Of a stretch of DNA of 48,441 nt, positions 10,329-34,323 are shown in pieces. Numbering within the stretch: the first letter of the stretch is position 1; the number at the start of each line of letters is the position of its first letter. The notes under the pieces are model-generated. The model saw only the letters and a program-made list of their open reading frames with translations, did not search any database and was not told the origin of the DNA. Source of the DNA: Hydrogenothermaceae bacterium (GTDB taxonomy: Bacteria > Aquificota > Aquificia > Aquificales > Hydrogenothermaceae); NCBI GenBank assembly GCA_027030405.1, contig JALVEZ010000007.1, positions 1 through 48,441 of the forward strand. The letters are read 5' to 3'. The position numbers and the translations under genes were made by a program.

Positions 10329-10610
10329 TTATGATGAAATTCCTTTTATAGCACTATCTATAATAAATTGAGAAAATGTGTATCGTCCTTTTTTACCATC
10401 TTTTTTTCTTTTTCTTTTTTCCTTTTGATACGCCATTAATAACTGATCGTATTCCTCTGCAGTAGGATACAGACTGACACGTTCTTTTTCGACTTTTAAA
10501 TCCTCTGTTTCATCTACTTCCTGCTCTATCTCCTCTTTTTTCTTGGTTTTCTTTTTTACCTTAACGATATCTTCCTTAAACATTTCATCATACGCCGTTT
10601 TCTTAGCCAT
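10329..10610 (-). CDS. Small basic ribbon-helix-helix-like protein, putative ParA partner
   Basis: This 93-aa protein has a highly charged Lys/Glu N-terminal half and a C-terminal part with a short strand (RVSLYPT), a helix, a basic loop and a second helix (TFSQFIIDSAIKG). This layout is typical of ribbon-helix-helix DNA-binding proteins. Two ATGs are adjacent; the second (10610) has AGGAG at 6 nt, whereas the first (10613) is only 3 nt away. The gene overlaps the end of parA by about 8 bp. By analogy with type Ib partition systems it could be the centromere-binding partner of ParA. No ParB-type gene is visible, so this is inference. Confidence 0.65.
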   Translation of the reverse strand: MAKKTAYDEMFKEDIVKVKKKTKKKEEIEQEVDETEDLKVEKERVSLYPTAEEYDQLLMAYQKEKRKRKKDGKKGRYTFSQFIIDSAIKGISS

Positions 10611-11355
10611 CATCCTCTCCTATGGTATTTATTCTTTTTTCTATTTGGTTCATAAGTTTTAGCATATCTAAAGATACAGCAGAACGTGGATCAAGTTCCC
10701 ATACTGGTACTCCAAGTGCCAGAGCTTCAGATATACGGATACTATCTCTAACTGGTTGTAAAAAGTTATCAGGAAAAGCGTTCTCCAGATTATTTAAAAT
10801 AGCCTTTGAAAAATTGGCTTTTTTATATCTCATAACAGCAATACCGGTAACATCCATCTTTTTTCTTCTAAACTTTTCAATTTTAGGTAATGTTTCCAAA
10901 AATATATTTAAACCTTTCAGAGCAGCTCTTGATGTATCAAGAGGAACTAAAACATGTGTTGAAGGAATAAGGGCATTTGCTGTAAATATGGACAAAGAAG
11001 GTGGCGTATCAATCACTACAAAATCATAACCGTCAAGATTCTCTAAAAATGTTTCAAGGGCATAAACATCCTGAACTCCCAACGCTTCAAATCTTGAAAG
11101 TTCGATATCAGAATAGATAATATCCAGATTCTTTTTTGCATTAAAAGGAGTTAGCTCTTTATTTTCAAAAATATTTTTTATATGGTGAGATTCATCTATT
11201 TCTTGATTGCCTAAAAACATCGAAGAGAAATTTCCTTGCATATCAAGATCAACTGCCAGAACTTTACCTTTACTTCTTAAGTGTTCGGCAAGATGAAATG
11301 CTAACGAGGTTTTTCCAGTTCCCCCTTTTTGAATACTTACTGTAATAACCTTCAT
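10603..11355 (-). CDS. parA: ParA/Soj-family partition ATPase
   Basis: This 250-aa ATPase has the deviant Walker A KGGTGKTS (residues 10-17), the A' motif VDLDMQGN, and Walker B VVIDTPPSLS. ParA proteins drive segregation of origin DNA by ATP-dependent binding to the nucleoid. The frame extends to TTG 11361, but ATG 11355, 6 nt after GAAGG, is preferred. It is transcribed away from the adjacent oriC-like region, as parA genes commonly sit at origins. Its downstream partner is a small RHH-like protein and not ParB. MinD-like roles are less likely because no membrane-targeting tail is seen. Confidence 0.9.
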   Translation of the reverse strand: MKVITVSIQKGGTGKTSLAFHLAEHLRSKGKVLAVDLDMQGNFSSMFLGNQEIDESHHIKNIFENKELTPFNAKKNLDIIYSDIELSRFEALGVQDVYALETFLENLDGYDFVVIDTPPSLSIFTANALIPSTHVLVPLDTSRAALKGLNIFLETLPKIEKFRRKKMDVTGIAVMRYKKANFSKAILNNLENAFPDNFLQPVRDSIRISEALALGVPVWELDPRSAVSLDMLKLMNQIEKRINTIGEDDG

Positions 11356-11460
11356 AACCAAACCTTCTCCCTAATTTTTCATTTTTTCGTAAAAAACATG
11401 AAATTCTTTAACGTTTTAACTTTAAAATGTTTATTTAGTTTATTCTAATTATTATATAAA

Positions 11461-11530
11461 AATATTTTCTATTTTTGTTTTTAAATTTTTTCTTTATTTT
11501 TATATTTATTTTTTATTTTATTTTTTTAAA
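11461..11530. other. T-rich DNA unwinding element
   Basis: Almost pure A/T with long T runs on the plus strand (for example around 11470-11500 and 11505-11527) lies immediately left of the DnaA-trios. Position and composition fit the duplex-unwinding element of oriC. Confidence 0.75.
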
Positions 11531-11532
11531 GT

Positions 11533-11556
11533 AAATAATAATAATAGTAATAATAG
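11533..11556 (+). promoter_or_regulatory. Eight consecutive DnaA-trios (basal unwinding motif)
   Basis: Read 3'->5' on the plus strand, away from the DnaA box at 11559, the bases give GAT AAT AAT GAT AAT AAT AAT AAA. All eight fit the published 3'-[G/A]A[T/A]-5' DnaA-trio consensus. Only two bases (TC) separate the first trio from the box. The trios are thought to capture single-stranded DNA in a DnaA filament. Confidence 0.82.
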
Positions 11557-11558
11557 TC

Positions 11559-11655
11559 TGTGGATAACTTTAAAAATTGGGTTTATAGCCTTTAATATCA
11601 ACGATCTGAGCCTGTGGATAACTATGTGGATAACCTGTGGATTTAATGTGGATAA
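11559..11655. repeat. DnaA boxes, left group (TGTGGATAA orientation)
   Basis: Perfect boxes lie at 11559-11567, 11613-11621, 11625-11633 and 11647-11655, plus a degenerate TGTGGATTT at 11636-11644. The last four begin 12, 11 and 11 bp apart, roughly one helical turn, so DnaA would load on one face as a filament. The first box abuts the DnaA-trios. Confidence 0.9.
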
Positions 11656-11737
11656 CTTTTTTTCAAAAAAATCTATATTTTAGAATACTTATACATTTTT
11701 AATTTGAAAACATTATTGTTTTTCAGATACTTAAACC

Positions 11738-11746
11738 TGTGGATAA
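11738..11746. repeat. Isolated DnaA box
   Basis: A perfect TGTGGATAA in the same orientation as the left group, 91 bp right of the previous box. Confidence 0.85.
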
Positions 11747-11764
11747 CTTTTTTTAAAGATTGAG

Positions 11765-11826
11765 TTATCCACAACTTATCCACAATTTTTTTGGAGTTAT
11801 CCACAATTTTTTGCCACTTATCCACA
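11765..11826. repeat. DnaA boxes, inverted middle group (TTATCCACA orientation)
   Basis: Four perfect boxes at 11765, 11776, 11797 and 11818 (9 bp each), with starts 11, 21 and 21 bp apart, that is about one, two and two helical turns. They are opposite in orientation to every other box. Confidence 0.9.
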
Positions 11827-11831
11827 ATTAA

Positions 11832-11940
11832 TGTGGATAACTTTTCATCCATGTGGATAACTTAAAAAGTTTATGTGGATAACTTGGATTTAGAATTGAG
11901 AATAGCTTAGAAACACAATGATTATCTCAATTGTGGATAA
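11832..11940. repeat. DnaA boxes, right group (TGTGGATAA orientation)
   Basis: Perfect boxes at 11832-11840, 11852-11860, 11874-11882 and 11932-11940. The first three begin 20 and 22 bp apart. Confidence 0.9.
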
Positions 11941-12087: not shown

Positions 12088-13143
12088 ATGAAACCTATAA
12101 GATGTTTATTATACGAAAAATTAAGAAGTCAAAAAGAGTTATCTCCAGAAGAAGTGAAGACATTAATGAATGTAGTTAGGAACGAGATAAATTTTTTAAT
12201 TCGAAATAATATTCTTCTAACGCCTGTAAACTATGAACGATGGTTTTATGTTTTTTGCTATGTTTATGAAAATAGAAGAGAGTTGACCGATCTAGAAATT
12301 TTTGGACTGTATAAGGAAGTTTATGGTTCAGAGGCTTCTTTCCAGACTTTTTCTGAAGAAATGCGTCCAAATGGATATGTGGAAAAATTAAAAGTTATAG
12401 CTTCTGAGATAGATGAAAAATTAAAGGAAATTGTTGATACTTTGACTGTTTATGAAGAAAATTTAGATAAACACACTGAAAAACTTGAAAAAGAAAAAGA
12501 ATGTTTGGATAAAACAAATATAGAAGATCTTTTGTCAAATATTCTTGAAGAACTGAAAGAAATTAAAAAGGAAAACTCTACACTAAAATCAGAAATTAAT
12601 CATTATCACTCTGAGATAAATAGATTGAAAGAAGAACTTTCCGTGGCTAAAAAAGAGGCAAATGTTGACCATCTGACAGGGCTTATAAATAGAAGAAGAT
12701 TTGAAAGAACTCTTTATACTATGCTTGAAGATTTTCATAAAAGAGGATATCCATTTTCAATAATTCTTTTAGATTTAGATGATTTCAAAAAGATAAATGA
12801 TACGTATGGTCATGCTGTTGGTGATGAAGTGTTAAAGGAAGTTGCATCTATTCTAAAAAATTATCTTAGAGCAAACACTGTTATCAGTAGAATAGGTGGT
12901 GAAGAGTTTGCTATACTGCTTCCTGGTGTTGAACTTGAAGATGCAGTTCATATAGCAAATAGGATAAGAAATCTTATTGCTAATCGAACAATAAGAGTGA
13001 ACGGATACGAAATTCATATAACAGCAAGTTTAGGTGTGACACAGGTTCAAAAAGATGATAACTTCAATAGAATAATGGAAAGAGTTGATTCATTGCTTTA
13101 TCTTTCTAAACGAGGTGGAAAAAATAGAGTTGAAGTTAGATAG
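12088..13143 (+). CDS. GGDEF diguanylate cyclase
   Basis: This 351-aa protein has a helical N-terminal domain of about 125 residues of unknown type, a coiled-coil linker (about 130-190, ELKEIKKE and similar), and a C-terminal GGDEF domain with DHLTGLINRR, LDLDDFKKIND and active-site GGEEF (270-274). The active site is intact, so it should make cyclic di-GMP from two GTP. The inhibitory I-site RxxD upstream reads RANT (261-264) and lacks the Asp, so product feedback is probably lost. No transmembrane segment is seen. The SD AAAGG precedes ATG 12088. The end overlaps the convergent ybeY by 8 bp. It is the first gene right of oriC. Confidence 0.9.
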   Translation: MKPIRCLLYEKLRSQKELSPEEVKTLMNVVRNEINFLIRNNILLTPVNYERWFYVFCYVYENRRELTDLEIFGLYKEVYGSEASFQTFSEEMRPNGYVEKLKVIASEIDEKLKEIVDTLTVYEENLDKHTEKLEKEKECLDKTNIEDLLSNILEELKEIKKENSTLKSEINHYHSEINRLKEELSVAKKEANVDHLTGLINRRRFERTLYTMLEDFHKRGYPFSIILLDLDDFKKINDTYGHAVGDEVLKEVASILKNYLRANTVISRIGGEEFAILLPGVELEDAVHIANRIRNLIANRTIRVNGYEIHITASLGVTQVQKDDNFNRIMERVDSLLYLSKRGGKNRVEVR

Positions 13144-34227: not shown

Positions 34228-34323
34228 TACTTTCCCTCTTTTTTATTTAATGCAAATCAAAAATATAACATCGTGAAACATTTTATCAAGTATTAAAGAG
34301 AACTTAAGAATAAGCGAATAAAC

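Follow-up and report, generated by a model that had tools for sequence, protein, structure and literature searches.

A BUS-type element with eight DnaA-trios in a probable chromosomal origin of the Hydrogenothermaceae (Aquificota)

Among the closest described systems to the locus reported here are origins that carry a basal unwinding system (BUS), for which the rule is that at least three in-register 3'-NAN-5' trios lie within 16 bp of a DnaA box (PMC8287927). A survey of 2070 origins predicted such elements in 85% of them, and they have been reconstituted with the DnaA proteins of six species besides Bacillus subtilis; tandem boxes beside the trios are the commonest form (57% of the predictions), although they are not required (PMC8287927). 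Two models of origin opening are under discussion, one in which a filament runs from a box (B. subtilis) and one in which the strand is recruited by looping (Escherichia coli, Thermotoga maritima). In many trees the phylum Aquificota branches deeply, and a key crystal structure of DnaA with single-stranded DNA reportedly comes from Aquifex aeolicus. In the origin literature that we searched by term, no Aquificota origin was described; the supplements of the broad BUS prediction may list some.

Here, we analyzed a window of 48,441 nucleotides from a thermophilic Hydrogenothermaceae bacterium (contig JALVEZ010000007.1), the genome of which is a draft of 253 contigs. Pattern searches, on which the genome-wide statistics given below rest, placed 13 of the 49 perfect DnaA boxes of the genome within 382 bp of intergenic sequence. 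No other dense cluster was found in the genome, and this one is flanked by a ParA-like gene (10603-11361, - strand) and a GGDEF gene (12088-13143, + strand). We consider it probable that the region from about 11400 to 11940 is the chromosomal oriC of this bacterium and that 11533-11567 is its strand-capture (BUS-type) element. The features of the region are listed in window coordinates, with genera of the family denoted g1 to g10.

11400 to 11532 (left limit approximate), + strand: T-rich tract beyond the trios, a probable DNA unwinding element (91% A+T, 62% T).
11533 to 11556, + strand: eight DnaA-trios, read 3'->5' from 11556 to 11533, seen in the sequence, reached in 0 of 20,000 shuffles and kept over ten genera.
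11557 to 11558, + strand: separator TC, 2 bp; the near box is also 2 bp from the first trio in g2, g3, g5, g7 and g10.
11559 to 11567, + strand: trio-proximal DnaA box (BUS box), a perfect match to TGTGGATAA.
11596 to 11608, + strand: IHF-like motif TATCAACGATCTG at +37 from the BUS box, one mismatch to WATCARnnnnTTR.
11613 to 11655, + strand: DnaA-box group with perfect boxes at 11613, 11625 and 11647 and a degenerate TGTGGATTT at 11636; its start is 54 bp from that of the BUS box, a distance shared with g2, g3, g5 and g7.
11721 to 11733, + strand: second IHF-like motif TTTCAGATACTTA, one mismatch to the consensus in the motif scan.
11738 to 11746, + strand: DnaA box, 91 bp from box 11647, a spacing kept within 1-2 bp in relatives.
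11765 to 11826, - strand: inverted array of four DnaA boxes (11765, 11776, 11797, 11818), mostly at 21-bp spacing (20-22 bp in relatives).
11832 to 11940, + strand: four further DnaA boxes (11832, 11852, 11874, 11932), with no trios beside them.

The + strand at 11533-11567 consists of AAATAATAATAATAGTAATAATAG (11533-11556), TC (11557-11558) and TGTGGATAA (11559-11567). Read 3'->5' off the box at 11559, which is the outermost of the 13 perfect boxes in the cluster, it gives GAT AAT AAT GAT AAT AAT AAT AAA, that is, eight in-register triplets, each with A in the middle, which end 2 bp short of a perfect box, exactly as the first-pass annotation had stated. The preferred 3'-GAT-5' makes up two of the eight trios and the remaining six begin with A. 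This number of trios and a 2-bp spacer lie within the BUS rule. The trios lie 5' of TGTGGATAA on the same strand, so that strand and side are those of the B. subtilis BUS, and the adjoining 100 bp (11433-11532) are 94% A+T and 67% T on the + strand, compared with 69.5% A+T for the window. The same annotation spoke of a "full" basal unwinding motif, which overstates the case, since a single box adjoins the trios here, compared with two in tandem in B. subtilis, g2 and g7. Likewise, the "very short" separator is indeed 2 bp long but not peculiar to this genome, because most genera of the family have 2 bp.

We scored runs of 3'-[GA]A[TA]-5' triplets that start at a spacer of 0-16 bp from a perfect box. 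The longest run was eight at 11559, against zero to four at the other perfect boxes of the window (n = 14 perfect boxes). A functionless (TAA)n microsatellite that came to lie beside a box by chance might be suspected in A+T-rich intergenic DNA, all but two of the eight trios being TAA or AAA when read 5'->3'. We regard this as extremely unlikely: when the intergenic sequence was dinucleotide-shuffled 20,000 times around fixed boxes, a run of seven trios arose next to a box once and a run of eight never; across the 2.03 Mb assembly, runs of eight trios give 11 overlapping matches at about eight sites, a single one of which is beside a box and by the origin; and both the fixed spacing and the leading GAT are kept across genera.

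The box cluster could also represent a site that titrates or regulates DnaA, of the datA or DARS type, rather than an origin. The datA site too joins DnaA boxes with IHF binding (PMC10380432), and GC skew is uninformative, in that it does not mark the cluster, which also counts against the origin reading. The cumulative skew minimum of the window lies at 34,272 (about 34.3 kb), 23 kb from the cluster, and that of the relative G024 lies 43 kb from its cluster within the 400-kb stretch covered (C1 1,411,501-1,811,500); skew was patchy in the two relatives examined, one of which (G001) was sampled too coarsely. The presence of an A+T-rich tract with trios, together with the uniqueness of the dense cluster in this genome and the single such cluster, apart from isolated pairs, in each of the relatives, makes a datA- or DARS-like role very unlikely in our judgment. 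We note that the skew minimum is displaced to the array side in both the window and G024. A separate observation concerns dnaA, which is separated from the conserved cluster by hundreds of kilobases in G001 and G024 and is thus not next to oriC in these genomes.

Further evidence for the origin reading comes from 60 relatives. The ParA-like neighbor, used as a query, found no relative among the genome contigs searched, and the origins were therefore located by DNA patterns. Searches for a box with trios and for tandem boxes recovered the cluster in most of the better-assembled genomes of the family. The three-base pattern in related origins had been proposed as a check on the element, and it was found in all ten genera (g1-g10), where the lower strand reads CTA TTA TTA TTA... 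outward from the box. Most relatives have four to eight trios, G013 has three and G007 has only two strict ones. A distance of 2 bp separates the near box from the first trio in g1, g2, g3, g5, g7 and g10; in the tandem form of g2 and g7 the perfect box is the farther of the two and the near one is a weaker TATCCACA. A strict form of the element gave only four matches among 84,980 species genomes, on contigs of a Hydrogenothermaceae bacterium, Persephonella sp. (two) and an Aquificota bacterium. The claim of a BUS-type unwinding element in an Aquificota origin is thus well supported by its anatomy and by the comparison of ten genera. Close pairs of perfect DnaA boxes were absent from several g8 genomes and from most of the neighboring family f2, the origins of which may use degenerate sites.

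The gene context of the cluster differs within the family. In g4 (G011), g6 (G005) and g8 (G028, G007) it adjoins the PDO and Dxr genes that are also found here, joined in g4 by RseP and DsrE2, and other genera have different neighbors; the element, with its trio pattern and 2-bp distance, has hence been kept through changes of gene context and of flanking sequence. As for the local arrangement, G011 and G028 have no more than about 100 bp between the PDO gene and the origin, whereas the ParA-like gene and a 94-aa orphan ORF (10329-11361) stand between the two here, and this pair therefore looks like an insertion in the present lineage.

The pattern of substitutions bears on which strand is captured. 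The lower strand, CTATTATTACTATTATTATTATTT, is rich in TTATT, and E. coli DnaA binds TTGT/TTATT in the single-stranded DUE (cited in PMC10316083), which would allow a reading in which DnaA grips the repeated TTATT, as it does in E. coli oriC, and the trios are merely the complement of TTATT. In an alignment of 20 genomes, which share descent and are not independent counts, trios 2 and 3 are invariant, trio 1 is CTA on the lower strand in most (with C in 15 of 20) and the changes in trios 2-5 fall on positions 1 and 3, never on the base paired with the central A. These changes fit the trio code, with C at trio 1 and at trio 4 here and with T or C at position 3, whereas G, which TTGT would allow, is not seen in trios 1-5. 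Conservation of the partner of the central A favors trio recognition over both TTATT capture and a plain microsatellite, and capture of the lower strand appears unlikely to us.

Inward of the trios, a common layout recurs in the family: BUS box, 54 bp, box group, about 92 bp, box and an inverted 21-bp array. The next box on the same strand follows the BUS box by 54 bp in g1, g2, g3, g5 and g7 and by 55 bp in g10; further boxes come at 11-12 bp, then another after about 92 bp and an inverted array of three or four boxes, most of them at a spacing of 21 bp. In the interval that separates the BUS box from the following group, Hydrogenothermaceae origins contain a repeated motif, WWTCAAnnACTTA, in one orientation. 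It was spotted by eye first and compared afterwards with the published IHF consensus, WATCARnnnnTTR (PMC8407004, PMC10380432). Across 18 origins, the exact consensus matched 28 times on the forward strand, where shuffles gave an expectation of 0.87, and five times on the reverse strand. The best match behind the BUS box has zero or one mismatch and stands at +27 or +37/38, positions one helical turn apart, in 17 of 20 aligned origins, a result that a random interval reaches in about 10% of cases. The copies in the present genome, at 11596-11608 and 11721-11733, have one mismatch each, the former placing an IHF-consensus-like site in the interval that follows the DUE-proximal box. A reading of the repeated TATCAATNACTTA as a weak DnaA box was rejected, since DnaA boxes do not vary at the bases that correspond to its two most variable positions, 6 and 7. 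As a close exact, iteron-like repeat the motif was found in G009 only. In a genome of another family of the order (G059), several TATCAATAACTTA-like copies occur beside a few DnaA boxes at about 1231-1450 of L064, upstream of a response-regulator-like gene, and the IHF-like motif may accordingly extend beyond the Hydrogenothermaceae.

The protein that binds the motif is putative. Four genes of the HU/IHF family are present in the genome, two of which fit IHF models better than HU models (92 vs 38 bits and 73 vs 42 bits), with all scores below the equivalog cut-offs. To our knowledge, IHF has been described as absent from the Aquificota, and a phased IHF-like motif in a family of this phylum is the part that is unexpected to a specialist.

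The DnaA protein of the family is consistent with trio capture. DnaA of G001 aligns with the B. subtilis DnaA of structure 8btg (E=1.5e-111), and the family keeps R202, K222, E223, E228, R264 and mostly I190 (B. subtilis numbers), single-strand-binding and arginine-finger residues that have been tied to trio capture or filament formation (PMC10721633, PMC8287927). As a point against capture, two residues that contact the trio adenine in B. subtilis differ in the family, with N187 replaced by S and E183 by D. A contig end truncates the dnaA gene of the present genome beyond the I190 region, and I190 is present.

From the observed sequence, geometry and conservation of the element, and from the DnaA residues of the family, we predict DnaA binding, unwinding and a bend at this origin. 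Domain IV of DnaA would bind box 11559 and seed a head-to-tail filament of ATP-DnaA leftwards on the + strand, each protomer interface capturing the first two bases of one trio, from 11556 towards 11533. The captured strand would be pulled off its partner, and the T-rich tract would open for helicase loading. The same-strand group at 11613-11655, 54 bp inwards, probably feeds or stabilizes the filament through a bend at the phased IHF-like motif at 11596-11608. Two results from other species have to be weighed here. When all six trios of the B. subtilis origin were 3'-AA-5', replication was poor (PMC10721633), and only two of the eight trios begin with G here, which weighs against the capture reading, as do the single box beside the trios and the two strict trios of G007. 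In T. maritima, the annotated trios proximal to the box helped but could be dispensed with, the strand being bound by TAG repeats at a greater distance (PMC10316083); box-proximal trios can thus be auxiliary, which we count against the function assigned here.

The distal boxes may also be viewed differently. As in E. coli and T. maritima, a loop bent by IHF or HU could bring DnaA on 11613-11655 to the unwound tract, with the distal oligomer holding the trio strand and box 11559 mainly setting the loop. The 54-bp distance kept over genera, the IHF-like motif at either of two positions one helical turn apart and the HU/IHF-family genes are all in line with such recruitment, and in T. maritima the TAG repeats are employed in the same manner, with HU presumed to bend the DNA that separates box 1 from box 2 (PMC10316083). 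The fixed 2-bp register between the near box and the first trio better fits a filament that runs on from the box, and we regard recruitment by looping as possible but rather unlikely as the main mode; a running-on filament and a looped distal group may both act. Clean trios, a fixed box distance and a phased bend motif within a single family make the relation of the two models directly testable.

The element itself is of a known type, and eight trios are not a record, as eight are annotated in Helicobacter pylori too (PMC10316083). Those of H. pylori oriC2 include AAT- and TAG-type trios and lie by DnaA boxes, as they do here (PMC10316083, PMC8287927). The H. pylori origin is bilobed around dnaA, unlike the present one. 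We know of no conserved IHF-like motif in H. pylori oriC2. The T. maritima oriC is likewise a thermophile origin in which trios lie by box 1 and the interval to the following boxes would accommodate a bending protein, but it has a different DnaA box, ACCTACCAC, and its strand is bound by three TAG repeats apart from the box (PMC10316083).

The incC region of B. subtilis (boxes #6/#7 and six trios) has in common with our locus the strand, the polarity, a perfect box, several 3'-GAT/AAT-5' triplets and an A+T-rich tract beyond them. Its tandem-box form is found in the sister genera g2 and g7, whereas one box stands by the trios here; the separator is 2 bp, compared with a GC-rich 5-mer in B. subtilis (PMC10316083) or 4 bp on average (PMC8287927). 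Furthermore, GA-type trios are fewer here and dnaA is not beside the origin. E. coli oriC (DUE - R1 - IHF site - R5M/tau2 ... R4) shares the A+T tract, a TGTGGATAA box, an IHF-like core, same-strand boxes and an opposed array. Its core GATCAACAACCTG, which we take to be the primary IHF site, starts at +27 from R1, while the motif is at +37 here and at +27 in sister genera. In contrast to the many weak sites of E. coli, the boxes are perfect throughout and a clear trio run adjoins the box. We tentatively suggest, as an idea that is plausible but doubtful, that Hydrogenothermaceae origins combine trios of the Bacillus type with a helically phased IHF-like bend and opposed box arrays of the E. 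coli type; bend-assisted orisome looping would then exist in the Aquificota, and a single ancient mechanism would comprise both trio capture and recruitment assisted by a bend, instead of the two being alternatives.
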